From NCBI GenBank assembly GCA_023053575.1, contig JAKZAP010000021.1:16802212-16866211 (forward strand): 64,000 nucleotides of DNA. The letters run 5' to 3'. The position numbers were made by a program, and so were the translations under genes. The notes below the pieces were generated by a model, which had not been told where the DNA came from, did not search any database, and worked only from the letters and a program-made list of their open reading frames with translations. Shown one piece after another: positions 2,369 through 55,120 of the stretch. Each line of letters begins with the position of its first letter. Position 1 is the first letter of the stretch. Source of the DNA: Branchinecta lynchi (Eukaryota; Arthropoda; Branchiopoda; Anostraca; Branchinectidae).

Positions 2369-3353
2369 AACAAGACCAAAGGTTTCGACGGGATCCCAAA
2401 CGTTTCATATCTGATCCAGACAATTGGATCTTGTCTTTGCCACACTACTTGAAAAAATTTTGCTATTTAAGTTTAGAAACAGATTAAGGCCAGTGGCTAA
2501 TCTTCTGAGAAAACCAAGTTCAGATATGGGTGTGTTTACTCCTATTGGTCATATATACTTTGACGAAATTGATCAAAACTTCCAGCAGACTTTTGCCAGA
2601 TTTCTTGTTTCTGCCGGATTCTGGGCGAACTACTTGTCCCTTAAAAAGCTCAAAAATGAATTTAGCTTATCTCCTTAACCCTATATCGAACCTCTAACCA
2701 ACTTCAGATAAAACTTGGACTTATAAAGAATTTTCAGGTTTTTGCCGGATTCCGGGCGAACTATTTGTCCGTCGAGAAAGTAATTTACATATACGGAATC
2801 AGCATGCCTCCTTACCACTATATACATCGAACCTCTGATCAACTTCAGATAAAACTTCTACTTATATGGCGATGTGTATATGGCTACGGCTGAATTAAAT
2901 AAATAAATAAAAATAAATAATTTTCCGGTTTCAGCCGGATCAGGGCGAACTATATGTCCAGGTGAAGAATGATGGATTCAGCATGTCATCTTTCTTACCC
3001 ATGATTCGAACGTCCAATGAAGTTCAAATAAAACTTTTACTTCAAGCAAATTTTCCGGTTTTGGCCGGATCGTGGGCGAATTACTTGGCGGGCGAAAAAC
3101 TAATTTTCATGTACATGTTCATCATGTCTCCTCACCCCTGGACTGAACCTCAAATCTACTTCAGATCAGACTTTTATTTTTCCTATATTTTCCGGTTTTG
3201 CCGGATTCCGGGCTAACTACTTGTCCGACAAGAAAAATTATCGGTGTAGTTGGATTCGACATGTCTCCTTAACCCTAAATCTACTATTTTTCGGCCGTTT
3301 TCATAGCCTATTCATAGGTATCCCTCTACTACGTTTTGGGATCCCAAAAACCT
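2369..3353 (-). mobile_element. Family A satellite-bearing element, copy 1 (reversed)
   Basis: Read from the minus strand it runs from the family head (GGGATCCC box followed by CGT) to the tail box GGTTTCGACGGGATCCC...GGTCTTGTT at 2369. Between them lie about five diverged copies of a unit of about 136 bp containing a CCGGATTCCGGGCGAACTA word. There is no coding capacity. Mobility would require enzymes supplied by another element. Confidence 0.8.
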
Positions 3354-3507: not shown

Positions 3508-5590
3508 AGTGCCATACAGCGATCGTAATTTCTATCGGTCTGTCCCAGTTTTGCTAGTTTGGGAACATAAGCTAGGACGATGAAACTTGTTCAAGTTTCA
3601 GACCGACTTTAACAAAAGGTCTGTCGGTAATCAGGAAACTTTTTGTTTGGGAATAGGAGTTTGTTGTCGCTGCGGAGATGATGACAAAAGCCTTGTCGGG
3701 AATTGAAGCCGATGATCGGATCGGGATCCTGATTCGATTGTTTTGATTTTTCGATACTGTAACCAGTAAGTCTTGTCGGTAAATGGGAACTTTCTTTTTC
3801 GTTCTGTTAAATCTAGAATGGATAAGGATTCTGTCTTTAAATTCAATAATTTCGAACTGTCCGTCAGTTCGAAAACTCTTTGTTGCGGTGACTGGAAAAT
3901 TCTCTTCGGTAAATCCATTTTTTTTTGTAAAATCACCTACAAATACTTTTTCCTTCCTTCCTATTCCTTAGCGGTAAACCGGCCACCCCCGCCAACTTGT
4001 TTCCTTGTTTTGTTCTGGGGGGGATTTCTCTGTTCCAAACCATTGATTGCCCTTTTGGGTTTATCTAGCTTTACATGCTATAATCAATCCGGGACATCGT
4101 CCACTTTATTCGTAACTGTGTCTTGTAACTGTATTAGTTCAATCGTTTCGGACGATGAAACTTGTCAGGCATATAAGGGACCCAACCAGATTAACTTGGA
4201 AACATTCACTTCCCAATCCGTCCATCGTGAGGGAAGTGGAGGGATGGGAAATCCGGAAACTAGTAACATGCATAACTTAGGAACGGGTAATCGGACATGC
4301 ATGAAATTTGATATTTGTCAAGGACAATTGTTTCAGATACTCAGTTTCAAATCCGGACCAAATCCGATAACTGGGAAGGGGCTGGAGGGTGGCACCGGTG
4401 AAACGCTTCCACATAAGCTAGGACGATGAAACTTAGCAGGAGTATCAGAAAACCGACCAGATTAACTTGCAAATAATCACTTCCCCGGTCCTGCAATCAT
4501 GGAGGGAGTGGAGGGATAGGAAATCCAGAAACTAGTAACATGCATAACTTCGGAGCGGGTAATCGGACATGCATGAAACTTGACATATGTCAAGAACAAG
4601 TGCTTCAGACTCTCAGTTTAAAATCCGGACCAGATCAATAACTGGGAAGATGCTGGAGGGGGGCACTGGGAATCTCGTGAAACGCTTCCACATAAGCTAG
4701 GACACTGAAACTTGGCAAGCATACCAGGGAACCGACCAGACTAACTTGGAAATAAATACTTCCCCGGTTCGGGCATGAGGGGAGAGTGGAGGGACGGGAA
4801 ATCCGGATACTAGTAACATGCATAACTTTGGAACGGGTAATCGGACTTCTATGAAACTTAACATCTGTCGAGAATAAGTTATTTGTATTTTCAGTTTTAA
4901 ATCCGGACCATATCCGACAACTAGGGAGGGGGGCTGGAGGGGGGGAGACCGGAAATCTTGTTAAACGCTTCCACATAGGCTAGCACAATAAAAATCGGCA
5001 GGCATATGAGGGAACCAACCAGATTAACTTGGAAATAATCACTTCCCGGATCGAGCCATCGCGCGGGGAGTGGAGGGATGGGGCATCCGAAAACTAGAAA
5101 CTTGCGTAACTTTGAACGGGTAATCCGACATGCATGAAACTTGAAGTTGTGAAAAACAAGTGTCAGATTTTCAATTTTAAATCCGGACCGAATCCGAAAA
5201 ATGGGGTGGGGGGGGAGAGTTTGGGGGGACCGGAAATCTTGTTTAATGCTGAGGGTCGAGGGATCGGGATGGAACTTGAAGGGAAGAACAAGCATTAACC
5301 CTGGATACTTTATTGACAAAACAAGACCGGGTCGTGTCACAGTAGGAGGGGGTTTTCCCGGACTTCTGGTGATCACGAATTAGGGTACTTTCAGATGTAC
5401 TAGGACCATAAGACTTGGCAGACAGATTAGGTATTCTCCTAGGTTGACTTGAAAATAGTTCCTTTCCCGATCCAATGACTATGGGGGTCTGGAAGGATGG
5501 GAAATCCGGTTTCTAGTGACATGTATAACTTTGGGACGGGTGCATGAACCTTGTCAAGTGTCAAGAACAAGTGTCTCAGATGATCAATTA
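3508..5590 (+). repeat. Family C satellite array, G-rich strand up, copy 1
   Basis: It starts with the family end GTGCCATACAGCGATCG and a GTCTGTCC stretch. From about 4090 it carries tandem units of about 280 bp marked by AAGCTAGGACGATGAAACTT (near 4420, 4695 and 4975), a GGGGAGTGGAGGGA tract and AAATCCGGACC. Family M is nested at 3601-4130. Frames in this array shared by neighbouring units are repeat artefacts. Confidence 0.8.
3601..4130 (+). repeat. Dispersed repeat family M, copy 1
   Basis: About 500 bp that reappears at 7605-8275. Shared words include TTTTCGATACTGTAACCAG, AAATTCAATAATTTC, GCGGTAAACCGGCCAC and TATAATCAATCCGGGA. No protein is recognised. It interrupts the first family C array. 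Confidence 0.7.
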
Positions 5591-5819
5591 TAACACATGG
5601 TTTATAAATTATAACACAATTGATAACACAGGTTATAGTTTAAAAATTAAGGTGACATACAGCATTGCTGTCTAAGGTAATCAGATACCGTGGTTTGTTA
5701 CTGAGGATGGTTATAAATGGAGATCAAAAATTTGAATTCCAGCTAAGCCCAGTTTTTAAAAATTGGAAAACGGAAACTGAAAGGATGTAGACTAGAAATT
5801 TGAGCGGATTCGTAAGATT

Positions 5820-5935
5820 GAAGGTTTGGAATCCGAGTACGAATCCGAATCCAGGCTGACAAGCAGAAGATTCGAATCCGGCCAAAAGGACGAATCCTGT
5901 ATTCGAATCCGGATTCGGATTCGCCCATCTCTGTT
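5820..5935. repeat. GGATTCGAATCC-type simple repeat
   Basis: A run of imperfect GAATCCGGATTCG words, each self-complementary, giving a locally hairpin-prone minisatellite. Confidence 0.7.
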
Positions 5936-6215
5936 CCAGATGTCAAGTTTTATTAAGATCCGATCTCCGGTTCCGAAATTATGGATACTTCAAGATTCCA
6001 GATTCCTTCACCCTCCCCACCCCCTGGATGGTCGGATTGGGGAAGTGACTGATATTAAGCTAGTTTGGTCAGGCCCCTAATATGGATGCCAAGTTTCGTC
6101 GTCCTAGCACACCTGGAAGTATCTTTACTCGCGATCGCCGGACCGACCGATGGAAAAGTGATCGGTATATGGAACTTGGCCGGAACTCAAGTGCCCTAAG
6201 AACGTTCCGGCTAGC
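5930..6215 (-). repeat. Family C fragment, C-rich strand up
   Basis: It carries family words in reverse orientation to 3508-5590: AAGTTTCGTCGTCCTAGCACA, CTCGCGATCGCCGG and a degraded end box TATATGGAACTTGG. Confidence 0.7.
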
Positions 6216-6556
6216 GAAAGTTGTCACGTCCTTGGCACGTATTCTGTCGTGTTGTTTGTCCTTATTTCGTAGACGATGCGTGCGGTTATTCGCGACATAA
6301 AAGTGAACATGGTTCGGTAGCTGTAAGGAAACACTCTCGCCTAGTCATGGTCTTGTATAACAAATAACTGGTGTAACAAATCAAGGAACTGCCGAGACGA
6401 ATTATGTAATTAGTGACACGCACTTTCACATACATCGGCACGAACAGGCATTGACTTGGGCACAGCTCGGTCATTTAATAGATTTAGCAACACTATACAT
6501 ACAATTAGGGTAAAAACCTACGAAACAATTGGCTTAATATATTCGATATCTGAAAT

Positions 6557-11909: not shown

Positions 11910-12074
11910 GTAAGTGTTGTTTGGTTAAATATTCATCAGAATTGAGGAGTACAAAATATAATGTATGAAACAGAACTATTCCAAAACCATCTGGTACATT
12001 CAATGACATATAAATACTAACAAAAATACAGATGCTCATACACATATGGATGTCAAAGCTATGCAATACAACAC

Positions 12075-12464
12075 TACACTGTCAGAAGTTTCATAACAGA
12101 TTGCGCCCAATACTTTCAAGATTGACAACACCTTTTCACTTAGAAATAAAGTGTTATGACCTATTAAGTTTAAACTATTTCGTGCCTAGATCTCCAACAA
12201 CACCTTCAATAGGTAAAAATACTACACTATCAGAAGTTACATAACGACAACAGAAGGATGCTCGGTTTCAACAGATAACACTTTGGGATGTTATCTGTTA
12301 TGTTTCTTTCGTTCCCGTTAGTATTTTTACCAATTGAAGGTGTTGTTGGAGATCTAGGCACAAAATACGTAAACTTAATTGGTCGTAACACTTTATTTCT
12401 AAGTGAAAAAGTGTTATTATTGAAAGTGTTATACGCTATCTGTTATGAAACTTCTGACAGTGTA
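12075..12464. mobile_element. Family F hairpin MITE, copy 2
   Basis: Ends TACACTGTCAGAAGTTTCAT and its complement. Inside them a second inverted pair (AACAACACCTTCAAT and ATTGAAGGTGTTGTT) encloses a smaller F-like hairpin (TACACTATCAGAAGTTACAT... at about 12225). It is nearly the same as 54734-55120. It lies 165 bp downstream of the exon at 11754. Confidence 0.8.
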
Positions 12465-12508: not shown

Positions 12509-13657
12509 AACGTAAGTGGAGGGATACCCATGACATCGCAAAAGTTGTCCGTCCGTCTGTAAGCACGATAACTCTCGAAGGGAATGAGATATTTTCATGA
12601 AACTTAGTGTGAGGATTCGTTTGGTCGTCGGACCAGTCAAGTTCGTAGATGGGCTTTGTAGCCCTACATTTAGGGGTGGTGGAGGGGGTTCAAATTAAGG
12701 GGCAAACAAAATATTTTGAAACAGCTAATGTGATAGTCGATTATGGGGTAAGAAGACATGCTGAGCACGATTGTGAAAACTATTTTGTCATTGGACGAGT
12801 AGTTCGCCCGGAATCCGGCTAAAACCGGGAAGTTTGTTAAAAGTAAAAGTTTTATTTGAAGTTGATTAGATGTTCGATTTAGGGGTAGGAAGACATGCTG
12901 AAGACGATGGTGAAAACCATTTTCTCGACGGACAGGTAGTTCGCCCGGAATCCGGCCGAAACCGAAAAGTTTGTTAAAATTAGAAGTTTTATTTCGAGTT
13001 GATTTGATGTTCGATTTAGGGCAAGAAGACATGTTGACACTTATGTGAAAACAATTTTCTACCCGGACATGTAGTTCGCCCCGAATCCGGCGAAAACCGG
13101 AAAGTTGGTTAAAAGTAAAAGTTTAATCTGAAGTTGATTAAATATTTGATTTATGGGTAGAAAGACATGCCAAACACGATGGTGAAAATCATTTTCTCGC
13201 TGGACAACTAGTTCGCCCGGAATCCGGCCAAAACCGGAAAATTCATTAAAAGCAAAAGTTCGATTAGATGACGGATTAAGGGGTAAGAAGAGAGGCTGAG
13301 TCGGTTTATGACAATGGTTTTTTACCTTGACATAAAAATATTCCGGACTTCGGTTGTAACCGGATTTTTTTTTAAGTCAAACTTTTATTCAAAGTTGATT
13401 AGATGTTCTTTATAGGGATAAGGAGATACGCTGGTTTTGTTTCTGTATTTCTTTTTTGCTGGACTAGTAGTTCGCCCGGAAATCGGCAGGAAGTCTCGGT
13501 CAGTATTGTCAGTATAGATATGGCTTATAGAGGTATATTTGAACTTGGTTCTCTCTGATGATTAGCCTGTCCAAGACTGGATCTGGCGAAGACAAGACTC
13601 GATTGTCTGAATCAAATATTAGATTTTTGGGATCCCATCGACACCTTTGGTCTTGTT
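12509..13657 (+). mobile_element. Family A element, copy 6 (forward)
   Basis: Head AACGTAAGTGGAGGGATA, GTCCGTCCGTCTGT, GGGGTGGTGGAGGGGG, then satellite units. The GACATG word recurs near 12754, 12892, 13028 and 13163, giving a unit of about 136 bp. The tail ends in the GGGATCCCATCG box and GGTCTTGTT. This is one of the most complete copies. Confidence 0.85.
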
Positions 13658-14549
13658 GGGATTCCAAAACGTAAGTGGAGGTAAGTTTGTCAGCACGATA
13701 CCTCTTGAAGGGAATGAGATATTTTGATGAAATTTGGTGTGAGAAATTCTTTTGGTCAATGGAAAGGTCGAGATCGTAGATGGGCACTATAGCCCTATAT
13801 TTAGGGTGGGGGAGAAGGCTCAGATGAAGGGGCAAACAAAATATTTTAAAACAGCTAATGAGATAGTCGATTAAAGGGTAAGAAGACATGCTGAACACTA
13901 TTATGAAAACCATTTTCTTGCCGGACAAGTAGTGCGCCGGGAACCGGGCCAAAACTTAAAAGTTTGTTGAACGCAAAAGTTTTATTTAAAGTTAATTAGA
14001 TGTTCGATTTACGGATAAGAAGACATGCTAAAAACCTATGCGTATCTTATTTTCTACCCGGACAACTAGTTCGCCCGGAATCCGGATAAAATCGGAAAAT
14101 CTGTTAAAACCAAAAGTATAATCCGTATATGACAATCATTTTACCCGGACATATTGTTCGTTCGGAATCCAGCTGAAACCGGAAATTTTTGTATAAGTTA
14201 ATGTTTTATTTAAAGTTGATTATGCTGTTTATAGGGATAAGGAGATACGCTGAATTCGCTTTGTTTATTTGCTGGACAAATAGTTCGCTCGAAATTTGGC
14301 CGAAACGGGAAATTGGTCAGAAGTATAAAGCAGGAAATTTCGATCAGTATCCTAAAAAGAGATATGGCTTGGCTTATAGAGATATATCTGAACTTGGTTG
14401 TCTCAGATGACTAGCTATATATTTGCTAAACTAATCTGTCTCTAAATTTAAATAGTAAAAATGTTTAAGGATTCTGGCGAAGACAAGACCCAATTGTCTG
14501 GATCAAATGTTAAATTTCTGGGATCCCATCGAAACCTTTGGTCTTGTTT
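13658..14549 (+). mobile_element. Family A element, copy 7 (forward, tandem with copy 6)
   Basis: The head GGGATTCCAAAACGTAAGTGG starts directly at the last base of copy 6, with no host sequence between them. The tail ends GGTCTTGTTTC at 14549. Tail-to-head tandem integration suggests insertion at, or recombination through, the GGGATCCC box. Confidence 0.8.
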
Positions 14550-19799: not shown

Positions 19800-21390
19800 A
19801 TTTTTTTTTTTTTTTAAATAAACACCCCTCTTATCACACTTCTTTCCTTTTTAAATAATGGGATTTAACCATTCTCTTGAATGATGCCAGACTTACAGCC
19901 TCTCTGACCGATTCTGGAAGGTCATTCCAGACGCTCACACCTATGTTCCTGAGAACAAATCCTGCTCTTGTTGTGTTTCTTCTCTAGTGAGCTAGATCCT
20001 CTAAATGTCGGGTAAAATAAGGGTGATCAAACGAGTTAGTGTTAAAAAAAATCATAAAAGTACTCAGGGCTTACCTTATTTACACTTTGAAAAACAAATA
20101 TCTCTAGCTGGTAATCACGGAGCTCACCTACGTTCAAAATCCCATTCTTTCTAAAACACTCCGCAGTATTCTGACAATTTTGAAATTCTCCTATGAGACG
20201 CAGCGCTTTGTCTTGTATTATTTGGGTTCTTTTATAATTGGACAAGAAATTACTTGTCCAAACAGAACAACCGTACGTGATGTAAGGATGCACAATAGCA
20301 CTGTATAACAGTTTGACAACTGCTATCGGGAACACTTTTTTCAGCCTCCTCATCACTCCCAATCCTCTAGCTGCTTTTGCCGATACTATTTCACCATGCT
20401 TCTTCCACGACAAATTGCAATCAATATAAAATCCGAGATATTTACAAACAAACACCTGTGTTATGTTGACTCCATTATATAGCACATTATCAAGAAGTTC
20501 GGGCAAACCAGTTCGACTAAACACCATAAAATTCGTTTTTCTTGGATTTACTGCAAGAGAGCTTAGAGCTGTAAAAACATGAAGCCGACTCAGGACGTGG
20601 TTTGCTTTTTGCACAAGCTCTTGCGAAGTCCGGGCGAACACTGTGAAAGCTGTATCATCGGCGAAAGATGTTAAAACTGAAGCGCGTAGATAAAATCGAA
20701 GGGTATCCACATATACCAGGAAGAGTAACGGGCCAAGGACTGACCCTTCGGGAACACCACAATTTATAGGCAATAGATATGTCACTCATCACCACCTTCA
20801 TGGTCTTCCGCACAGGTAAGATCGAAACCAACTTAATGCCGTATAAGATTTCGCAGTCTTTTCAGTAAAATTTAAAAATCCACAGTGTGAAACGCCTTCT
20901 TCAAATCAATAAAAATAGTTAGAGGAATCAAATTATTTTCAAACGCCCTATTTACACAATCTAAAAGGTGATGAACGGCATGCACTGTAGAATGACCTTT
21001 TCTAAAACCAAACTGCGAGTCTGACAAAAATCCAAGCGAATTCATGTACTCGTATATTTTTTTATACACTACTTTTTCGTGAATTTTTGAGAACAGCGGT
21101 AGAATAGATATCGGTCTCCAGTTGGAAATGTCTCTTTTATCACCTCCTTTATGGAGGGGTATAACTTTTGCGCGCTTTAGTTCGTCAGGAAAAGCCTTTT
21201 TGAACAGATAAATTGACTAGAAATAAGATGACAGGTAAGAGATACGCAGCAACTGTTTTAAAAGCTTTGATATTTAGGCCATCAACACCAGCTGCTACCA
21301 TCAACACCAGATACTTCTTGGTACAGGGCAAACCAGTAGGTGAACTATACCAGAAAAAACAATAAGAAATACGAGAAATCAAATAATAAA
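19800..21390 (-). pseudogene. Non-LTR retrotransposon (CR1/jockey-like group), 5'-truncated
   Basis: The minus strand encodes much of a reverse transcriptase in order. It opens with QFGFRKGHSTVHAVHHL (around 20990), then FIDLKKAFHTVD (around 20900), CGVPEGSVLGPLLFLVYVD (around 20750) and the FADDT active site (around 20660). Further on are the thumb segment CKYLGFYIDCNLSWKKH and the end segment SVWNDLPESVREAVSLASFK (around 19910). The catalytic aspartates are present (FADD). The copy is broken: QFGFRK and GVPEGS lie in different frames, one stop sits near 19985, and the N-terminal endonuclease is missing. The plus-strand poly-T at 19801-19816 is the 3' poly-A. It inserted into the hAT-like element. 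Subfamily needs a tree. Confidence 0.85.
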
Positions 21391-21950: not shown

Positions 21951-22857
21951 GAAACAAGACCTAAGGTTTCGATGGGATCCCAAAAAGTCTAATATTTGAT
22001 CCAGACATTTGGGTCTTGTCTTCGCCAGATCCAGTCTTCGCCACGATAATCATCTGAGAAACCATGTTCAGATATATCTCTATAAGCCATATCTATTTTG
22101 ATGATACTGACCGAAACTTTCTGCTTTACTTCTGCCAAATTTCCGGTTTTGGCCGAATTTCGAGCGAACTACTTATCCAGCAAAAAAAGAACAATTCAGA
22201 AACAAATTCTGCCTATCTCTCTATCCCTATAAAGAAGGTCTAATAATTGCAAATTAAACTTTAACTTATAAAATTTCTGGACGAATTATATGTCCAGGTA
22301 AAAAATGATTGTCTCAAACAGACTCAGCGTCTTTTCTTAGCCGTAACTCTGTCATCTAATCAACTTCAAATAAAAATTTCGCTTTTAACAAATTTTCCGG
22401 TTCGGCCGGATTCCGGGAGAACTAGTTGTCCGACGAGAAAATGGTGTTCATCATCGTGTTCAGCATGTCTTCTTACCTCATAATCGAACATCTAATCAAC
22501 TTCAAATAAAACTTTTAATTCTATTCAACTACCGGTTTTGCCGGATTCCGGACGAACTAGTTGTCCGGCAAGAAAATGGTTCTCACCATCGTGTTCAGCG
22601 TGCCTTTTCACCCCATAATCGTCTATCACATTAGCTGTTACAAAATATTTTATTTGCCCTTTAATTTGAACCCCCACCCCTAAATGTAAGGCTACCGAGC
22701 CCATCTACGAACTTGACCTTACCCTTGATCCAACGAATCCTCACACCAATTTTCATCAAAATATCTATTTCCGTTCGAGAGTTATCGTGCTGACAGACGG
22801 GCAATTTTTACGATGTCATAAGTATCCCTTCACTTACGTTTTGAGATCGCAACAAAC
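21951..22857 (-). mobile_element. Family A element, copy 9 (reversed)
   Basis: Tail box AACAAGACCTAAGGTTTCG at 21951, about five satellite units, then the head (CACTTACGTTTTGAGATC) near 22857. The head box has decayed from GGGATCCC. Confidence 0.8.
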
Positions 22858-29415: not shown

Positions 29416-29573
29416 CTTTCAGAATCAGAATCATCTTTATTTGCCCAATATCTTTACACAAGGACAAAAAAATAACCTACAATTAATTCATATCGTGTCA
29501 AAATGCTTCATTGTCTTCTTTTCCTACTATTTTCAGGTTGTGATGACGGGTGAAATATGACACGAACGAGTTT

Positions 29574-29868
29574 GAGCGTGTTCCACCCTTTTGCAAATAG
29601 TAACTATTAGTTACTATTTCCGTTCCAACCTCACCAAAAGTTACTACGCTGACCGTTCCGACCTTCTCGAAATAGTAACTATTTGCTTACCACGCTTAGG
29701 AGCGTCGGAAGCGTAGTAACTACGGATCTCGGTAACGTGATTGGTCGGATTCGCCCGTGGCATGATATTCTGCTGGAAAATAGAAAAATCATTCCAGCCT
29801 TGACAGCCAAAAGCCAGAATTCGTGACGTCGTGCGTAGTAACTACGGTAAGTATGATGGAACACACTC
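29574..29868. mobile_element. Family E MITE, copy 1
   Basis: Ends GAGCGTGTTCCA and TGGAACACACTC, with TTT on both sides (29571-29573 and 29869-29871) as a 3-bp target duplication. The interior is rich in AGTTACTA and its complement. It lies 136 bp before the exon at 30005. A second copy is at 46219-46523. Confidence 0.8.
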
Positions 29869-30004
29869 TTTGTGTGGCGTTGTTTTGAGTGAGTTGATTG
29901 TGTCAGTGGTGGCTGAAGGAGTGGATCGAGTCCCTTAGTTTTTGGCACGACGTGTTCGACTTTTAGGAAGTTGTTTCAGTTCAACTTAACTAACGTTGTT
30001 ACAG

Positions 30005-39436: not shown

Positions 39437-39461
39437 TTGGACTATGGCATGCATTTTGGGT

Positions 39462-39775
39462 CAAAATTGTTAAAAATGTTGCCGAGAATACTCGAAATGT
39501 CGCCGAGAATCCATGAAATGTAGCCGAGAAGCTGCTTTTGTCGCCGGGATTTTTTGTGTGTATCCGAGACTGCAACGTTTGTTGCCGAGAATGACAACTT
39601 TGTAGCCGAGATTTTCACTGAAAAACGTGTCGCCGAGAAATACGGATATGCGTTCGAAACCAAAAATCTAGTTCCCGAGATGGAACAACGTGTCTCCGAG
39701 ATTGATAGAAATGTCGCCGAGATTTCGCGTAATGTCGCCGAGAATGCATGAAATGTCGCCGAGATTTCTTTGAAA
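39462..39775 (+). repeat. 21-bp tandem repeats in the left terminal arm
   Basis: GCCGAG occurs at about 39481, 39502, 39523, then near 39563, 39584, 39605, later 39716, 39737 and 39758, almost always 20-21 bp apart (consensus AATGTCGCCGAGA plus 8 bp). Because 21 bp is seven codons, the plus frame 39554-39751 reads as heptads such as RNVAEIS/RNVAENA, with V and A at fixed positions as in a coiled coil. A TGA near 39517 and a frame slip break the left part. Whether it is translated is unknown. Confidence 0.7.
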
Positions 39776-39937
39776 ATAACAAACGAGTGAAAAAAGTGTC
39801 GCCGAGAATTGGAAAAAAAATACAGCTTAGAACGAAAAATCTGATTTTTGATATGGGAACAAATGTAGCCGACTTGGTGGTTGGTGAGGTCCTCCTTATT
39901 GTTCTATTTGTAAGTCCGGAACAAGTGTGATTCTTCG

Positions 39938-40090
39938 TTGCAGTACACGCTCCCTACCATTGTAAGTGCTATATTTGCTATCGCACTCTTGTTGGTATTA
40001 GTCTACTCAATAAACAATGTGAATCTGAACAACAGTTGCTCAAAAGTAAGATCCACAGGAAGTTTCAAAGGAAAGGATATGGCTCAGAGG
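39938..40090 (+). CDS. Short membrane-spanning frame, left arm
   Basis: It reads MQYTLPTIVSAIFAIALLLV then LVYSINNVNLNNSCSKVRS, a strong single membrane helix of about 20 residues followed by a polar tail. A listed ATG-like start is not required: the frame may be entered by splicing, since GTAAGTCC at 39911 and TTCGTTGCAG at 39936-39945 could remove a mini-intron of about 35 bp and join it to the preceding NVADLVVGEVLLIVLF frame. The first 47 codons are identical in the right arm (48702-48562). A family D insertion at 40091 replaces the original end. Function unknown; coding status is inferred only from conservation. Confidence 0.4.
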
Positions 40091-40606
40091 CAGGGGCGTT
40101 GCGAAAGGGGGGGAGGGGGTACAAAATTCGGTAACTTATTTGGTATAATTGCTAGGATTCGGTAGTTACCACAAACATGAAGAGGTCGAGTGAAGAACTG
40201 GTCGCAGACAAAGGATTTCATCGATATTCCTTACTTTTATTTGTATCCTAAAAACAAGCTCTTATCAGAAATGTCTCGAAAATTCTGCCTGCGGCGCTTT
40301 TCATAATATTCACTATTTTCCGGAAAGGTGCGTCATTTAGCTAGGTTTTAAACCAGTTTTAGGGGTCGCGATTTTTCAAAACCCTAAAAGCTAGAACCTG
40401 CATGGAAATAGCTGAATTTGGCAGGAAAAAAACAACTTAAAAAATCTCGCCTGCGGCGCTCACTTTATGAGATCATGGCTAGTAATGACTAGTCATACAG
40501 TAGCTGCTGCTGCCGGGATGTCGCTCCATCCGGTTTCTGGAAATTCTTAGGATCCTGGTGTTTTGGCTCTGCACCTAACTACAAAAATTCACTTGTGACG
40601 CCCCTG
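40091..40606. mobile_element. Family D hAT-like element in the left arm
   Basis: Ends CAGGGGCGTTGC and GTGACGCCCCTG. The flanking 8 bp are CTCAGAGG and CTCACAGG. It is 516 bp, the same length and with the same flanks as its mirror copy at 48034-48549, so the insertion is older than the arm duplication or was copied between arms. Confidence 0.85.
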
Positions 40607-41111
40607 CTCACAGGTGCTAAGAAAGCTAGAATAAGTATAGTCGCTGAAAGAAATATATAACTGAAACGCATTTATTTTACGGATATATCATCAAAAAATG
40701 TGTTACCACCTTACATTTTTTGAAATAATGACTTTAGCACAAAAACCTGGTTCTGGGTAGCTTGACTTTGACATGGACGACTGATTTTCTCTTTCATTTG
40801 AGTCATCCACCAATAGCCTTGTATACTGGTAAGGGCTAAGGTTCAAGCATAGCAAGTATGATAGTTTGGTTCTTGCAATAGCCTTTTCACATGGTTATGG
40901 TTAAGGTTCAAGTCTCCAAACATCGTTTGTATGGTAGTTTTGGTTCATCTTAAAAGGAAATGTCAGGTAAGCAGCACTTCATAGCATCTCCATGACTGGA
41001 AGTGCAAGCCCATCTCAGAACCATGCTTGTTCATGGTTACACATTCAAATCCAAGATCAGAGCTTCTGAGAACTTAACACGTCAGCAGGGCCAGGAATTG
41101 GCTCAAGCTCA
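40607..41111. other. Arm sequence without recognised frame (left)
   Basis: Mirrors 47620-48033 in the right arm. It contains AAGGTTCAAG words twice (near 40840 and 40896). No coding pattern is evident. Confidence 0.5.
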
Positions 41112-41605
41112 CTACTTCCGAACTGTTAGTTTCAATGACTTATTAGGACTGTGATTGTTCAACTCAACTTCAGAGACAAGAAGTGGTTTATCTGATAGGT
41201 GGAAATAAACAGGAAATTTCAGTCCGGTGATGCAGCTTTTCCACCTCGAAATTCCGGCTTCCTCACTACTACAGATCCCCAGAAGCTGAGGAATATATCC
41301 TTTGCATACACGCTCCATGTACTGATTGTCAATTAATATACTTTTCCAAATTTTGGCTATCACCCCTTGACTTCATATTTCAGGAATTGCTCAATACTGT
41401 TCAAAACTGGAGCTTGAGTACTAGTCAGCTGCTCCTGTTGGCTTTGGGCACGAATGATCACTGCATGGGCTTTGCCTATTCCTTCTTGCGGACCTTTAAT
41501 AGCCGATTTCCCACACAGACTTCCATTATCGACAACTGCATCTAACACTTCGGAATCCATCTTCGAATTTCCGATCATAATGGGCACATTGGGCACACAT
41601 AGCAC
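41112..41605 (-). CDS. Pair of unrecognised frames, left arm
   Basis: Two minus-strand frames lie end to end. The first (41605-41360) includes MIGNSKMDSEVLDAVVDNGS and AIKGPQEGIGKAHAVIIRAQ and stops at EVKG. The second (41363-41112) includes YIPQLLGICSSEEAGISRWK and CITGLKFPVYFHLSDKPLLV. They overlap by a few bases in different frames. The mirror frames are at 47093-47311 and 47354-47614. Over 72 comparable residues of the first frame only six differ between arms. No domain is recognised and there is no similarity I can name to transposases. They may be exons or remnants of the element's own gene. Confidence 0.45.
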
Positions 41606-41764
41606 TCATCAGAAGAAACAGTGTTATTCTCAAGTGTTAGGTTAATTGTGAATGAATTTGTGGTAAAACAATTAAAGATTCTTCCTTAAATATCTGATTT
41701 TGTGAATTTCTTCTCTGAAAATCAGATATTTAAGGAAGAATCTTTAATTCTTTTCCCACAAACT

Positions 41765-41890
41765 CATTTGCCAACTTGAGAGGCTTGAGCCTGAAAAGGA
41801 CCCTTGCCAAGAAGGGCTGAAGTATCGCTCTTATGAAAATGTAGCTGACTTATGGGTTTGCACCGTACATGATGATTCGCAGTCAGCATG
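41765..41890 (+). repeat. Family G core in the left arm
   Basis: GAGCCTGAAAAGGACCCTTG and CCAAGAAGGGCTGAAGTATC, followed by GTAGCTGACTTATGGG. It is mirrored at about 46740-46860 in the right arm. A hairpin pair, AAATCAGATATTTAAGGAAG and its complement, lies just outside at 41670-41745 and 46872-46950. Confidence 0.6.
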
Positions 41891-42329
41891 GGCTGGAGGA
41901 CTATCTCCAACCTTCTTTATACTCTTGATGACTATCTCTCTATGCCGATTCAGAATCTCTGGGTACCTGCGGAAGAAATGAAGAAATGGTGCGAAAGCTG
42001 CGGTGACTCGGGATTTGAGTCGTTGAGTTTGAGTCGTTACGGACACGTTTACGGTACTCTTTCTTCCTGAGAATCAGTGGCGTGTTCTGAACTTAGTCAT
42101 ATAGAGTATTATCCCACAACTAAAAGTTCTCCTGCTTTGGAAAGTGAACTGTTTGCTACTTCAGTCTCATGCAAGGAATTTTTTAGCAAACTACAATCTA
42201 GATCTGCCATGGAAGAAAAGCAAAAACGGCTCCATAGCGTGGTGCCAGAGAGCCAATGTCTGCAGATACTTACATACAGTTCTCAGAAAAAGAGCCATTG
42301 ACAGTCAAAGGTATGTCAGTCAATTCTGA
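41888..42329 (+). CDS. Unrecognised frames conserved between arms (left)
   Basis: The frame at 41888-42070 reads MGWRTISNLLYTLDDYLSMP and AEEMKKWCESCGDSGFES. Downstream frames at 42077-42329 are open in two registers. The mirror frame at 46734-46537 has MGWRTISNRLYTLDEYLSML and AEEMKKCCKSC, retaining residues with conservative changes. The start region overlaps the family G end (GCAGTCAGCATGGGC), so part of the similarity could come from the repeat. No family recognised; low confidence as a gene. Confidence 0.3.
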
Positions 42330-42467
42330 CTCAAACTATACTAAAACATGAGCTACTTGAACCACTAAAAGAACTTTAGAGAGGCTGCAATGGCCTTGAA
42401 CTTCTGACTTTCTTTGGTATATGATGTCCTCCTTAGGGAAACGTAAATACCTCACTAATCTAGCAAA

Positions 42468-44117
42468 TCAAGTTGACACTGAAGGAAGGCCCATGAATAA
42501 TACAGCACTGCACCCATTTAGACACTCGCACTTCTTGAATCCTGTACCACCTACTTCTTAGTGTTTTTCTAGATTATTTTGTCTGAATGATCTTATAACT
42601 CTAGGCAGAGGTCTCGTTTCATGGAAATCTAGAGGGACAAAAGTCACTGTACAGGACTGGGACGCAGGTGCCCTTCGAAGGGTTTCGGCATGTTGAACAA
42701 GACCAAAGGTTTCAATGGGATCCCAAAAATTCAATATCTGATCCAGACAACTGCGTCTTGTCTTAGCCAGACTCCTTGAACATTTTTACAATTAAAATTC
42801 AGAAACAGATTAAGGCAAAATAGCTACTCAGCTGGGAAAAACCAAGTTCAGATATGGATTCAGCATGTGTGTTTACCCCTATAAGTCATATCTGTTTTGA
42901 CGAAAACTTCCTGCCACTTCTGCCAATTTCCTGGTTTCGGCCGAACTCCAGAACTACTTGTCCGGGGAAAAAAAGAAAGCTCAAAAACGAACTCAGGGTA
43001 TCTTCTTTCCCCAATAATGAACATCTAATCAACTTCAAATAAAAATTTAACTTATAAAAAATTTTCCGACTCCAGCCGGATTCCGGTCGAACTTAATTTC
43101 CGGGTAAAATATGATTGTCAAACACGAATTCAGCATCTCTTCTTACCCTTAAATCGGTTATCTAATCAACTAGAAATAAAACTTAAGCTTCTAACAATTT
43201 TCCGGTTTTGGCTGGATTCGGGGGGAACTACATGTCAAGGTAGAAAATTTTTTCACATAAGTGTTCAGCATGTCTTCTTGCGCTAAAGCGAACATCTAAT
43301 CAACCCAAAATAAAACTTTTAATTTTAACAAACTTTCCGGTTTGGGCCGGATTCCGGGCGAACTACTAGTCCGTCGAGAAAATGGTTTTGACCATCGTCC
43401 TCAGCATGTCTTCCTACCCCTAAATCGAACATTTAATCAACTTCAAATAAAATTTTTACTTTTAACAAACTTTCCGGTTTTGGATTCCGGGCGAACTACT
43501 TGTCCGATGACAAAATGATTTTCACCATCATGTTCAGCATGTCTTCTTACCCAATAATCGACTATCAAATTATCTGTTTCAAATATTTTGTTTGCCCCTT
43601 AATTTGAACCCCCTCCCCCACCCCTAAATGCAGGGCTACAAAGCCCATCTACGAACTTGACTGGTCCGAACACCCAACAAATCCTCACACCAAGTTTCAT
43701 CAAAATATCTCATTCCCTTCGAGATTTATCGTGCTTACAGATGGACAGACGGACAGACGGACAACTTTTGCGATGTCATAGGTATCCCTCCACTTACGTT
43801 TTGGGATCCCAAAAAGTATCTCAAATATAAGACTGGCAGATATTTTGCTAACCTGGAGGATTATACTGGTTAGAAACAATAGACAAGAAACAACAGGGCC
43901 AAACAAATGCGCAAAACTGTGTGAATTGCAAGAAAAAGTAACAACAATTCTTACAAGTTTAAGGCAAAGGCTTATAGGTCATCCATAATAATAGGAATTT
44001 GCTACGAGGGAAGCCCCCACAGTAGTCTGTTATAACTGATGACAATTAACAGCTTGAAAATATTCGCCCGCTGCAAATTCAGGCTAAATTTTCTGAATGT
44101 TATTCTGTTTTGCCTGC
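42468..44117. other. Left-arm-only segment
   Basis: The right arm passes directly from the equivalent of 42467 (CTCACTAATC, complement near 45838) to the equivalent of 44118 (GCTGATTCCCCC, complement near 45825). This 1.65 kb, including a family A copy, is therefore an insertion on the left or a deletion on the right. Its non-A parts include an open stretch reading EKVTTILTSLRQRLIGHP near 43920-43985, which looks coding-like and may belong to the original element. Confidence 0.6.
42697..43818 (-). mobile_element. Family A element, copy 11 (reversed, left arm only)
   Basis: Tail box AACAAGACCAAAGGTTTCAA at 42697, six satellite units, head GTCCGTCTGTCCGTC and the GGGATCCCAAAA box at about 43805-43818. 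Absent from the right arm. Confidence 0.85.
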
Positions 44118-44270
44118 GGTGCTCCAGAACCCCACGAAGCTGATTCCCCCACCCCCCAATGATGCCTCTGATTCTAGGATTCTGAATCTCTGATTCAAGC
44201 AACTCTGGGCCTGAGTCTAACAATCCCCTGAGCCTAATCTCTCAGCCTAATCTCTCAGCCTCATAAACTT

Positions 44271-44446
44271 TGTTGTAGCAGGCACACTGAAAAACAACAA
44301 CATAGGTTCGGACAGTGGTTGGAGAGACCATAGGTTACCTATCCTGCATTGTAAATGACATCATAGCAGGCACACTGAAAAACAACAACACAGGTTCGGA
44401 CAGCGGTTGAAGAGAACATAGGTTACCTATCCTGCATTGTAAATGA
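44271..44446 (+). repeat. 87-bp tandem duplication, left arm only
   Basis: TAGCAGGCACACTGAAAAAC to CATTGTAAATGA occurs twice (near 44275 and 44362). The right arm has a single copy (about 45612-45705). Confidence 0.8.
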
Positions 44447-44918
44447 TATCTCGTTTTATCCATGAAATTCAATCCAAGCCTTTGGAAGACTCTGTGACCC
44501 CTCAGTGTGCACACCTTTCGGGGATTTTGAATCCTGGCAATACCTGAAACCTTGAGGTACTGAAATCCCTAACGATGTAAGAACAAAGGCTAGCAAAATT
44601 CAAGAGAAATCTCAAAAGAAGCCAGACAAATTTTTCTTTTCCTTTTCGGTGGTCTAATTATATTGTCAATAGGATGAAAACAATCACAAGTCCCAGCAGA
44701 CGATTCCAATATAAATTTCGCTTGTCTTTTGAAAAAAACTTTAAAGCTCATATTTAAATTGGGTAGTGGGACTGGTGGGGTCCGGGTTCACCTTTGGGTC
44801 TACCCGAAAATCCTTCTCCCCCCTGGACACAAAAATCCGTCCGCCCTCCCTGAATGCAAATATATAGGAAACTAAATATATTCTGACAGCGAGTTAATGT
44901 AAACTCTATACAGACACA

Positions 44919-45059
44919 CGAGTTAATGTAAACAGGTGATGGTGGCCTTCCCTATCTATGAAATACTTTTAATAGAAATAAATTGGGAGAGGGTTTGGTC
45001 GGGGTGGTTCGGTACCCGAGGTTTTTTCGTGCCGCCGGGGGGGGGGTCGCTGGGGCGAC
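44919..45059. other. Loop between the inverted arms
   Basis: The last mirrored bases are CTCTATACAGACA (44906-44918) and TGTCTGTATAGAG (from 45060). The unpaired spacer includes a second GAGTTAATGTAAAC next to the left arm and a GCCGCCGGGGGGGG tract on the right. No frame recognised. Confidence 0.7.
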
Positions 45060-46218
45060 TGTCTGTATAGAGTTTACATTAACTCGCTGTCAGAATATAT
45101 TTAGTTTCCTAGATATTTGCATTCAGGGAGGACGGACGGATTTTTGTTGCCAGGGGGGAGAAGGATTTTCAGGTAGACCCCTGGGCGCGGACCCGGACCC
45201 CACCAGTCCCACTACCCAATTTAAATATGAACTTTAAAGTTTTTTCAAAAGACAAGGGAAATTTATATTGGAATCGTCTGCTGGGACTTGTAACATTCAT
45301 CCTAATGACAATATAATTAGACCACCGAAAATGAAAAGAAAAATAATCTTTTACATTGAAGATTACGCTTTTAGTGTCAAGAATAAGAAGAGATAAAGAA
45401 AGAAAATTTCGTTACTTTTTTTCTGACTTCTTTTGAGATTTCTCCTGGATTTCTCTTGAATTTTGCTAGCCTTTGTTCGTACGTCGTTAGGGATTTCAGT
45501 ACCTCCAGGTTTCAGGTATTGCCAGGATTCAAAATCCACGAAAGGTGTGCACACTGAGGGGTCTCAGAGTCTTCCAAAGGCTTAAATTGAATTTCATGGA
45601 TAAAACGAGATGTCATTTACAATGCAGGGTAGGTAACCTATGTCCTCTTGACCGCCTACTGTCCGAATCTATGTTGTTGTTTTTCAGGGTGCCTGCTACA
45701 AAGTTTATGAGGCTGAGAGATTAGGCTCAGGGGATTGTTAGACTCAGGTTAGACTGAGGCCCAGAGTTGCTTGAATCAGAGATTCAGAATCCTAGGATCA
45801 GAGGCATCATTTGGGGGGGGGGATCAGCCGACTGGATTAGTGAGGTATTTACGTTTCCCGAAGGAGGACACAGGAGGACATCATATACCAAAAGAAAGTC
45901 AGAAGTTCAAGGCCATTGCAGCCTCTCTAAAGTTCTTTCAGTGGTTCAAGTAGCTCATGTTTTAGTATAGTTTGAGTCGGAATTGACTGAAATTGCTTTG
46001 ACCGTCAATGGCTATTTTTCTGAGAATTGTATGTAAGTATCTGCAGACATTGGCTCTCTGTCACCAGGCTATGGAGCCGTTTTTGCTTTTCTTCCATGAC
46101 ATATCTAGATTGTCTTTGAAGCAAAGAGTTTGCTAAAAAACTCCTTGCCTGAGACTGAATTAGCAAACAGTTCACTTTCCAAAGCAGGAGAACTTTTAGT
46201 TGTGGGATAATACTCTAT

Positions 46219-46523
46219 GAGCGTGTTCCACCCTTGTAACAATAGTTACTATTAGTTACTATTTCCGTTCCATCCTCACGAAAAGTTACTACGCTGACCG
46301 TTCCAACCTTGTCGGAATAGTAACTAATAGTTACTATTTGCTTACCATGCTCGGGAGTGTGGTAAGCGTAGTAACTACGCATCTCTGGAACGTGATTGGT
46401 CAGATTCGCCCCTGGCGTGAGATCCTGCTGGAAAATAGAAAAATCGTTCCAGCCTTGACGGCAAAAAGCCAGAATACGTGACGTCATGCGTAGTAACTAC
46501 AGTAAGTAGGATGGAACACGCTC
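46219..46523. mobile_element. Family E MITE, copy 2 (right arm only)
   Basis: Ends GAGCGTGTTCCA and TGGAACACGCTC with TAT on both sides (46216-46218 and 46524-46526). The left arm has the uninterrupted site CATATAGAGTATTATCCC at about 42098-42115, a natural empty-site control confirming the element limits and the 3-bp duplication. Confidence 0.9.
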
Positions 46524-47092
46524 TATATGACTAAGTTCAGAACACGCCAGTGATTCTCAGGAAGAAGGAGTAAACGTGTCCGTAACGAATCAAACTCAAC
46601 AACTGAAATCCTGAGTCAGCGCAGCTTTTGCAGCATTTCTTCATTTCTTCTGCAGCCATCCGGAGATTCTGAATCAGCATGGAAAGATATTCATCAAGAG
46701 TATAAAGACGGTTGGAGATAGTCCTCCAGCCCAAGCTGACTGCGAATCATCTTGTACGGTGCAAACCGATAAGTCAGCTACAGTTTCACAAGAGCGATAC
46801 TTCAGCCCTTCCTTGCAAGGGTCTTTTTTAGGCTCAAGCCTGTCAAGCTGGCAAATTAATTTTTTGGAAAAAGAATTAAAGATTCTTCCTTAAATATCTG
46901 TTTTTCAGAGAAGAAATTCACAAAATCAGATATTTAAGGAAGAATCTTTAATTGTTTTACCACAAATTCATTCACAATTAACCTAACACTTGAGAATAAA
47001 ATTGTTTCTTCTGATGAGTGCTATATCTGCCAAACTTGATCTCCTTTCCAGGGCACAGTTATTGATCAAGAAACATAACTGCCTCGGCCATT

Positions 47093-47614
47093 ATGATCGG
47101 AAATTCGAAGATGGATTCCGAAGTGTTAGATGCAGTTTTCGATAAAGGAAGTCAGTTTGGGAAATCGGCTATTAAAGGTCCGCAAGAAGGAATAGGCAAA
47201 GCCCATGCAGTGATCATTCGTGCCCAAAGCCAACAGGAGCAGCTGACTAGTACTCAAGCTCCAGTTTTGGACAGTATTGAGCACTTCCTTAAATATGAAG
47301 TCAAGGGGTGATAGCCAAAATTTGGAAAAAGTATATTAATTGACAATCAGTACATGGAGCCTGTATGCAAAGGATATATTCCTCAGCTTCTGGGGATCTG
47401 TAGTAGTGAGGAAGCCGGAATTTCGAGGTGGAAAAGCTGCATCACCGGACTGAAATTTCCTGTTTATTCCCACCTATCAGATAAACCACGTCTTGTCTCT
47501 GAAGTTGAGTTGAACAGTTACAGTCCTAATAAGTCATTGAAACTACAGTTTGGAAGTAGTGAGCTTGAGCCAATTCCTGGCCCTGCTGACGTGTTAAGTT
47601 CTCAGAAGCTCTGA
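47093..47614 (+). CDS. Pair of unrecognised frames, right arm
   Basis: Mirror of 41112-41605. The first frame (47093-47311) has MIGNSKMDSEVLDAVFDKGS and stops at EVKG exactly as on the left. The second (47354-47614) has GYIPQLLGICSSEEAGISRW and ends PGPADVLSSQKL, longer than the left copy, whose end is frameshifted (TVRK). The shared stop after EVKG suggests a true terminus, a splice boundary or a break older than the duplication. Upstream, TTTCCAGGGCACAG near 47049 could be an acceptor. Role unknown. Confidence 0.45.
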
Positions 47615-48033
47615 TCTTGGATTTGAATGTGAAACCATGAACAAGCATGGTTCTGAGATGGGCTTGCACTTCCAGTCATGGAGATGCTGTGAAGTGCTGC
47701 TTACCTGACATTTCCTTTTAAGATGAACCAAAACTACCATACAAACGATGTTTGGAGACTTGAACCTTAACCATAACCATGTGACAAGGCTATTGCAAGA
47801 ACCAAACTATCATACTTGCTATGCTTGAACCTTAGCCCTAACCAGTATACAAGGCTATTGGTGGATGACTTAAATGAAAGAGAAAATCAGTCGTCCATGT
47901 CAAAGTCAAGCTCCCCAGAACCAGGTCATTATTTCAAAAATGTTAAGGTGGTAACACATTTTTTGATGATATATCCGTAAAATAAATGCGTTTCAGTTAT
48001 TTATTTATTTCTAGCTTTCTTAGCACCTGTGAG

Positions 48034-48549
48034 CAGGGCCGTCGCAAGTGAATTTTTGTAGTTGGGGGCATAGCCAAAACACCAGGATCCTAAGAATTTC
48101 CAGAAACCGGATGGAGCGACATCCCGGCAGCAGCAGCTACTGTATGACTAGTCATTACTAGCCATGATCACATAAAGTGAGCGCCGCAGGCGAGATTTTT
48201 TAAGTTGTTTTTTTCCTGCCAAATTCAGCTATTTCCATGCAGGTTCTACCTTTTAGCGTTTCGAGAAATCGCGATCCCCAAAACTGGTTTAAAACCTAGC
48301 TAAATGACGCACCTTTCCGGAAAATAGTAAATATTATGAAAAGTGCCGCAGGCAGAATTTTCGAGACATTTCTGATAAGAGCTTGTTTTTAGGATACAAA
48401 TAAAAGCAAGGAATATCGATGAAATCCTTTGTCTGCGACCTGTTCTTCACTCGACCTCTTCATGTTCGTGGTAACTACCGAATCCTAGCAATTATACCAA
48501 ATGAGTTACCGAATTGTGTACCCCCTCCCCCCCTTTCGCAACGCCCCTG
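48034..48549. mobile_element. Family D hAT-like element in the right arm
   Basis: Mirror of 40091-40606 with the same 516-bp length. Ends CAGGGCCGTCGC and ACGCCCCTG; flanks CCTGTGAG and CCTCTGAG. Confidence 0.85.
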
Positions 48550-48561
48550 CCTCTGAGACAT

Positions 48562-48702
48562 ATCCTTTCCTTTGAAACTTCCTGTGGATCTTACTTTTGA
48601 GCAACTGTTGTTCAGATTCACATTGTTTATTGAGTAGACTAATACCAACAAGAGTGCGATAGCAAATATAGCACTTACAATGGTAGGGAGCGTGTACTGC
48701 AA
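48562..48702 (-). CDS. Short membrane-spanning frame, right arm
   Basis: The minus strand repeats TLPTIVSAIFAIALLLVLVY followed by SINNVNLNNSCSKVRS without change relative to the left arm. Past this the frame enters family D sequence and ceases to be informative. Identity over 47 codons, while neighbouring arm sequence has drifted, could mean selection before or after duplication, or recent gene conversion. Confidence 0.4.
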
Positions 48703-48854
48703 CGAAGAATCACACTTGTTCCGGACTTACAAATAGAACAATAAGGAGGACCTCACCAACCACCAAGTCGGCTACATTTGTTCCCATCTCAAAAATCAGA
48801 TTTTTCGTTCTAAGCTGTATTTTTTTTTCCAATTCTCGGCGACACTTTTTTCAC

Positions 48855-49200
48855 TTGTTTGTTATTTTCAAAGAAATCTCGGCGACATTTCATGCATTCT
48901 CGGCGACATTACGCGAAATCTCGGCGACATTTCTAGCAATCTCGGTGACATTTCTAGCAATCTCGGCGACACTTTGTTTCATCTCGGGAACTAGATTTTT
49001 GGTTTCAAACGCATATCCGTATTTCTCGGCGACACGTTTTTCAGTGAAAATCTCGGCTACAAAGTTGTCATTCTCGGCAACAAACATTGCATTCTCGGAT
49101 ACACACAAAAAATCTCGGCGACAAAAACAGCATTCTCGGCTACATTTCATGGATTCTCGGCGACATTTCGAGTATTCTCGGCAACATTTTTAACAATTTT
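48855..49200 (-). repeat. 21-bp tandem repeats in the right terminal arm
   Basis: Mirror of 39462-39775 with one additional repeat: the minus frame (49150-48890) has an extra IARNVTE heptad. The repeat block therefore changes copy number in whole 21-bp steps while keeping the heptad register. Confidence 0.75.
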
Positions 49201-49220
49201 GACCCAAAATGCATGCCATA

Positions 49221-49292
49221 TTGGACCGCTACAAGACCCGAGTGTCTGTAAATATTACATTTTTAGGATCCCATCGAACCTTTGGTCTTGGT
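49221..49292 (+). mobile_element. Family A element, copy 10, right remnant
   Basis: After the TTGGAC duplication, CTACAAGACCCGAGTGTCTG and GATCCCATCGAACCTTTGG complete the tail begun at 38580. Some tail bases between the two sides are missing. Confidence 0.8.
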
Positions 49293-54553: not shown

Positions 54554-54733
54554 TTTGACCGTTGTCTGTTTTGTCGTCCAACTTCGCCCGTTCTGAAAAA
54601 ACAATCGGTCTTACCCGATTTCGGCAGAATTATTTAGCATTTTGTTTTACTGTTATGTCTGCCCCCACAAGAGTTTCATCTGGTAATTAAATTCATTCGT
54701 TAATTTATCCTACGATAATGAAGTGTTAATAAC

Positions 54734-55120
54734 CACGCTGTCGGAAGTTTCATTTCAGATTGCGCATAAAACTTTCAACAATAACGCCTTTTCACTTAGA
54801 AATAAAGTGTTATGACCAATTAAGTCTATACTATTTCGTGCCTAGATCTCCAACAACACCTTCAATAGGTAAAAATACTGCACTGTCAGAAGTTACATAA
54901 CGACAACAGAAGGATGCGCGGTTTCAACAGATAACACTTTGGGATGTTATCTTTTATGTTTCTTTCGTTCCCGTTAGTATTTTTACCAATTGAAGGTGTT
55001 GTTGGAGATCTAGACACGAAATAGTGTAAACTTAATTGGTCATAACACTTTATTTCTAAGTGAAAAGGTGTTATTCTTGAAATTGTTATCCGCTATCTGT
55101 TATGAAACTTCTGACAGTGC
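54734..55120. mobile_element. Family F hairpin MITE, copy 3
   Basis: Nearly the same as 12075-12464, including the nested inner hairpin (GCACTGTCAGAAGTTACATA) and the long mirrored CAACAACACCTTCAATAGGT arms. Outer ends CACGCTGTCGGAAG and CTTCTGACAGTGC are slightly decayed. Confidence 0.8.

Follow-up and report, generated by a model that had tools for sequence, protein, structure and literature searches.

A High-Copy Palindromic Foldback Family in Branchinecta lynchi, Probably Mobilized by an IS3EU/GingerRoot-Type Transposase

Introduction

Foldback elements are mostly assigned to the Mutator superfamily, with exceptions such as Galileo of the P superfamily, as stated in the accessible part of PMC4079207. 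Here, we describe an element of 9.8 kb at positions 39443–49220 of a 64,000-nucleotide stretch of the genome of the anostracan Branchinecta lynchi (the window; G000:C13:16802212-16866211) that forms an inverted repeat over its whole length and whose termini and target-site duplications resemble those of IS3EU/GingerRoot transposons. Set against the predominance of Mutator among known foldbacks, an element of this architecture with IS3EU-type ends would support its repeated evolution on unrelated transposases.

IS3EU/GingerRoot elements possess terminal inverted repeats (TIRs) of more than 30 bp, and autonomous members encode an IS3/IS481-like DDD/E transposase. Their termini are given as TA..TA with target-site duplications of usually 6 bp in the available sections of PMC10045372, and as TAYGG..CCRTA with 6-bp duplications for fungal families in those of PMC12730594. 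For Styx, a related element from Zymoseptoria, the accessible part of the description reports a 36-bp TIR and 6-bp duplications, and degenerate copies are thought there to be moved by intact ones. Galileo, the P superfamily foldback of Drosophila, has long, internally repetitive arms with several transposase-binding sites (PMC3688188, available part), duplications of 7 or 8 bp with the consensus GTATTAC (PMC4168063), and transposase remnants; its arms have been implicated in inversions, according to the accessible text. Tetris, a Mutator-type foldback, is presented in the available part of PMC4079207 as non-autonomous, without a known transposase gene and with duplications of 8–10 bp, arm tandem repeats of 220 bp and three structurally complete copies. 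Duplications of 6–7 bp are also made by Dada, families of which have been described as lacking TIRs and residing in small nuclear RNA or transfer RNA (tRNA) genes. Polintons (Mavericks) likewise generate 6-bp duplications, end in AG..CT and carry polymerase and integrase genes.

Results and Discussion

A Dispersed Family of Palindromic Elements

The window element is one of many dispersed copies of a high-copy foldback family, the typical member of which is a palindrome of about 9–10 kb. It constitutes a single insertion. Alignment of the arms with each other delimited a left arm (arm A, 39443–44916, + strand) and a right arm (arm B, 45060–49220, - strand) that is an inverted copy of arm A, with a central spacer of 143 bp (44917–45059) between them. 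Upon self-BLAST, positions 39443–41583 matched 49220–47088 in inverted orientation with 95.0% identity over 2166 columns, while the arm alignment gave 92.5% for left-arm positions 1–2664, 89.4% for 2659–3021, 85.3% for 4697–4920, 88.7% for 4922–5188 and 92.0% for 5188–5474. A segment of about 1.7 kb with family A tandem repeats (42464–44138) is restricted to arm A. Both termini carry the identical sequence TATGGCATGCAT, and TTGGAC is present immediately to the left (39437–39442) and to the right (49221–49226) of the element. A preliminary description of the window had placed the limits of the mirrored arms correctly within a few bases, and the identical termini and flanking hexamers that it named are borne out. 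It had further claimed that the insertion split a copy of family A. After joining of the flanks with one TTGGAC, they aligned across the join to 21955–22855 (71.6% over 955 columns, with a gap at the join) and also to 13535–13658 (74.2% over 124 columns). As the joined flanks match repeat copies, the claim is supported, though the copies are diverged.

The genome searched comprises 575.7 Mb in 216 contigs. With the best 40 of 3093 candidates scored at first look, the first 1201 bases of the element yielded at least 41 matches of 91–100% identity, 40 of which start at base 1. The exact 30-mer of the left terminus (TATGGCATGCATTTTGGGTCAAAATTGTTA, 39443–39472, + strand; inverted copy at the right terminus, 49191–49220, - strand) occurs 170 times (87 forward, 83 reverse), whereas its reversed control has no hit on either strand, and because of this excess the element is not an accident of assembly. 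Among 100 of the 170 terminus places that were listed, 41 inward-facing pairs within 25 kb were found, of which 30 span 8.9–10.04 kb, 10 span 10.2–17.4 kb and one spans 5965 bp, while 18 termini were unpaired. Twenty other copies were taken as 10-kb stretches, longer copies being read in part. Nine of these stretches contain the second full terminus, corresponding to element lengths of 9.0–9.6 kb, and four (L015, L018, L021, L027) extend partway into the second outer arm; in the remaining seven a second outer arm was not seen within 10 kb. A second copy of an arm-internal segment is present in L009, L010 and L012 (in L012 as a piece only), the partner terminus is 11.3–15.4 kb distant in L010, L011 and L024, and L016 and L026 exhibit a single arm in the stretch covered. 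A 93-bp piece of the spacer lies at the centre of all nine other full copies (92–98% identity), and a 90-base probe from the end of the arm-A segment (44051–44140) was found in one arm of each of the nine. Foldbacks typically consist of long inverted arms separated by little other sequence, and the assignment to this type in the preliminary description is supported, with the palindrome as the transposing unit in many copies.

Ends, Target-Site Duplications and Candidate Transposases

Based on its ends and the length of its target-site duplications, the window element is probably a copy of an apparently non-autonomous foldback family that is moved in trans by a transposase of the IS3EU/GingerRoot type. 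Both junctions were covered in 42 copies, comprising 37 pairs out of the 41 and five copies not among them (L017, L020, L022, L023 and L025); the pairs outside this count are C6:13137335, C1:13839416, C9:12938932 (not both junctions covered) and the 5965-bp pair. TATGG..CCATA ends are present in the window copy as well as in the 41 others, in agreement with TA..TA and with the fungal pattern TAYGG..CCRTA, and arms of thousands of bases exceed the TIR length of 30 bp. Exact duplications measure 6 bp in 26 of the 42 copies, the usual length for IS3EU, and 7 bp in 13, with a 12-bp match inside an AGT microsatellite in one further copy; duplications of exactly 8–10 bp occur in none of the 42. From the base counts, no consensus is evident among the 26 sites of 6 bp. 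Genome copies with differing duplications, which the preliminary description had named as counting against itself, are thus found in part, namely in the 13 of 42 copies with 7 bp instead of 6 bp. According to the rule used in Repbase, superfamily membership requires an equal duplication length together with alignment of terminal positions 1–11 to a known member (PMC4455052). In the present case the assignment rests on ends and duplication length, because no transposase is tied to the family.

The longest stop-to-stop frame in the 20 other copies, each covered over 10 kb, has 175 amino acids and extends into the flank. The 17.4-kb copy L031, covered in part, has a frame of 191 amino acids that probably lies inside another insertion, since the stretch concerned does not match the element. 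Insofar as copies were covered, those above 10 kb in part, the family is apparently non-autonomous. The window element carries a gene-like fragment of two frames separated by stops in arm A (41112–41605, - strand) and again in arm B (47066–47614, + strand). The stops recur among the copies listed. When the 549-bp stretch is compared across copies in one fixed frame, which is not open throughout, the three codon positions have 122, 87 and 121 changes, without the deficit at second or first positions that marks a gene; the fragment is taken to be decayed. No homologues of these frames were found in phage records (searched with one frame) or in a large protein database (searched with the other, no candidate sharing three words). 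The sole Pfam match from three window frames, RickCE_N with an E value of 0.039, is below the curated cut-off and was taken as chance. The idea of a head-to-head dimer with genes of its own, put forward in the preliminary description, finds no support in these data, given the lack of frames above 175 amino acids in 20 copies and the stop-broken state of the gene-like stretch.

Candidates for a transposase acting in trans were sought by profile search. The integrase model PF24764 has 34 matches in the genome vs. 0 in 14 control genomes, and four frames at two of these loci match the model. The integrase genes are each broken up into separate frames; our guess is that they are of the IS3EU kind. 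Three of the stretches around PF24764 genes, L032, L034 and L035 (C14:9508100, C5:226045 and C22:730228), are 98.5–99.8% alike over aligned pieces and represent a repeat that carries a split rva_4 (PF24764) integrase gene and that must be longer than the stretches covered because the aligned pieces reach their edges. PF13683 has at least one match in the genome, the best 150 of 322 candidates having been scored: a frame of 318 amino acids with an integrase core, open at its 3' edge (L095, G000:C22:10527580-10528979), which we take to resemble a Polinton integrase. Polinton-like elements are therefore probably present in the genome.

Several observations weigh against mobilization by an IS3EU/GingerRoot-type enzyme. 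In the 10-kb stretches around four PF24764 genes (L032–L035) there is no TATGG..CCATA-like pair with a duplication, and no transposase was seen in the 20 copies (10 kb each). A third of the duplications are 7 bp instead of the usual 6, one of the 42 copies has no duplication (C7:4488888-4498492) and another has inverted flanks (C9:3890484-3900472). The 18 of the 100 listed exact termini that lack an exact partner, and the site matches on the opposite strand of the subterminal arrays (4 per window arm at 3 mismatches; see below), also belong here. In structure, the family differs from IS3EU/GingerRoot elements by its arms of 4–5.5 kb, which take the place of TIRs of tens of bases.

Among the papers listed in searches of the open-access literature, as distinct from Repbase and most subscription papers, there was no IS3EU foldback; in the available part of PMC8268682, which names both terms, "foldback" occurs in a reference title only. 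Within the same scope nothing contradicts the view that the family is undescribed, as the preliminary description had considered possible, Repbase lying outside it.

Inheritance of the Palindrome

For comparison of the arms, the window element and the nine other full copies were oriented by means of the arm-A segment, giving 20 arms. In the innermost columns 5400–6259, every one of the 20 arms has its closest match on the same side of another copy, with an identity to its own opposite arm of 0.886–0.925; in the last block, from column 6000, identity is 0.835 within copies vs. 0.967 and 0.962 between same sides. The grouping of inner arms by side therefore shows that the two halves had already diverged when the copies spread and that palindromes move whole. 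Judged from these alignments, the palindrome transposes as a unit and probably formed once. In the outer 2.2 kb, the closest match is the same side of another copy for 14 of 20 arms and the opposite arm of the same copy for six (those of the window element, L017 and L020), a pairing backed by the tree for L017 (100/99) and L020 (100/100), the window pair being without tree support. Mean identity over the outer five blocks is 0.966–0.983 within copies and 0.963–0.981 between same sides. The outer arms are partly homogenized, which may reflect occasional arm-to-arm conversion.

Subterminal Arrays

Each arm of the window element carries an array of short direct repeats close to its terminus. The left array (39477–39809, + strand) consists of 13 TGTCGCCGAGAAT-like sites with up to 3 mismatches, mostly spaced at 20–21 bp (12 sites at up to 2 mismatches), and the right array (48832–49186, - strand) of 14; both end by base 389, and at the same tolerance shuffled versions of the two arms contained 0.09 and 0.13 sites on average. 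All 20 arms contain 11–14 direct copies of TGTCGCCGAGAAT or TGTCGCCGAGATT (up to 2 mismatches) in their first 600 bp, mostly at 21-bp spacing, and none beyond. As a repeat corresponds to about two helical turns and the orientation is fixed, a row of binding sites is suggested, and by analogy with Galileo, which likewise combines long, internally repetitive inverted arms with multiple sites, we regard the arrays as putative transposase-binding sites. Repetitiveness of the arms, a foldback trait, is confined to the first ~400 bp in the window arms and 600 bp in the 20 arms; tandem repeats elsewhere in the window element lie within the arm-A segment.

Alternative Explanations

The family could be a foldback of the usual kind, with a Mutator-like or P/Galileo-like transposase and somewhat short duplications. 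The prevalence of Mutator among foldbacks and the exception formed by Galileo (PMC4079207, available part) speak for this, as do the 7- or 8-bp duplications of Galileo (PMC4168063) when set beside the 7 bp in 13 of 42 copies. We nevertheless consider it unlikely: 6 bp is the commonest length (26 of 42), the 8–10 bp of Mutator-type Tetris occur in none, the 26 six-bp sites lack an evident consensus comparable to GTATTAC, the combination of that sequence with 7–8 bp was not found, and TATGG..CCATA equals a published IS3EU end. Tetris, likewise a non-autonomous foldback for which no transposase gene is known, further differs in its 220-bp arm repeats and its three structurally complete copies, and Galileo in its transposase remnants. 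Derivation from a Polinton/Maverick or another integrase-bearing element with 6-bp duplications is very improbable, even though a Polinton-looking integrase frame exists in the genome, as we take the L095 frame to be. In the 20 copies, as far as covered, there is no polymerase, integrase or other long frame, in contrast to Polintons, and AG..CT is unlike TA..TA; from the comparison with Polintons drawn in the preliminary description the duplication length stands, whereas the ends point to IS3EU. Dada was considered for its 6–7-bp duplications and rejected on account of the long TIRs and the absence of any Rfam or tRNA match within the window.

That the copies are not inherited palindromes but dimers formed anew each time, by head-to-head joining of one-armed elements, can hardly be believed. 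The long arms, the unpaired exact termini and the single arms of L016 and L026 would fit such an origin; for the 10 full copies, however, it is contradicted by the innermost arms, which group by side in 20 of 20 cases, and by the central spacer, which all 10 share. Least probable of all is an assembly artefact. L029, with 100% inverted identity over 1808 bp, of which 300 bp are flank, may be an artefact at its own locus, but 39 of 42 copies are bordered at both ends by exact 6- or 7-bp duplications, and in the nine other full copies the outer parts of the arms differ by 1–8%.

A Possible Mode of Transposition

The palindrome probably originated a single time, when half of an earlier element was duplicated in inverted orientation. 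If mobilization by an IS3EU/GingerRoot-type enzyme is accepted, a DDE transposase of this kind, supplied in trans, would bind the ends and arrays, excise the element and paste it into a break staggered by 6–7 bp. Conversion between the outer arms may then keep the ends alike as the inner arms drift apart, and neighbouring copies may recombine through their arms, inverting the DNA between them. We tentatively propose, with rather less assurance than for the type of transposase, that foldback architecture has evolved independently on the integrase-like IS3EU/GingerRoot transposase, in the form of a near-complete palindrome of 9–10 kb with some two dozen phased binding sites that transposes intact, predates the spread of the family, has outer arms kept alike by conversion and is able to invert the chromosome between neighbours. 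As the family offers 170 exact termini, inner arms that evolve separately and duplications that can be read, the survival of long palindromes in a genome becomes a testable question, as does the frequency of arm conversion or inversion.

Rearrangements at Neighbouring Copies

Two neighbouring elements, C9:3876707-3882671 and C9:3890484-3900472 (within G000:C9:3876407-3900488; L029, L078, L079), each have flanks that are reverse-complementary to one another, with TGCAGA on the outer and its reverse complement TCTGCA on the inner sides. Re-inversion of the 7.8 kb between them restores an ordinary TGCAGA duplication on both. This arrangement could have resulted from a tandem duplication and a later inversion mediated by the arms; an assembly error is a possible alternative reading. 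At C3:3293713 and C3:3299655 (L030, G000:C3:3293413-3299955), outward-facing termini 6 kb apart have CCTTCG on their facing sides, which suggests duplication of the DNA around one copy.

Further Features of the Window

Nested in arm B is an insert of 305 bp (46219–46523) that resembles a miniature inverted-repeat transposable element, with ends GAGCGTGTTCC and TAT on both sides; none of the nine other full copies carries it at the corresponding site. A similar repeat (~86% alike), with ends GAGCGTGTTCC and 3-bp flanking repeats that are probably TTT, lies at ~29573–29869. Self-inverted elements of ~390 bp with ends near CACTGTCAGAAGTTTCAT are present at 12073–12464 and 54732–55119; they are 92% alike, and each is ~80% identical to its own reverse complement. 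Finally, a reverse transcriptase fragment (PF00078, E value 4.3e-10) is encoded at 20042–20785 on the - strand.

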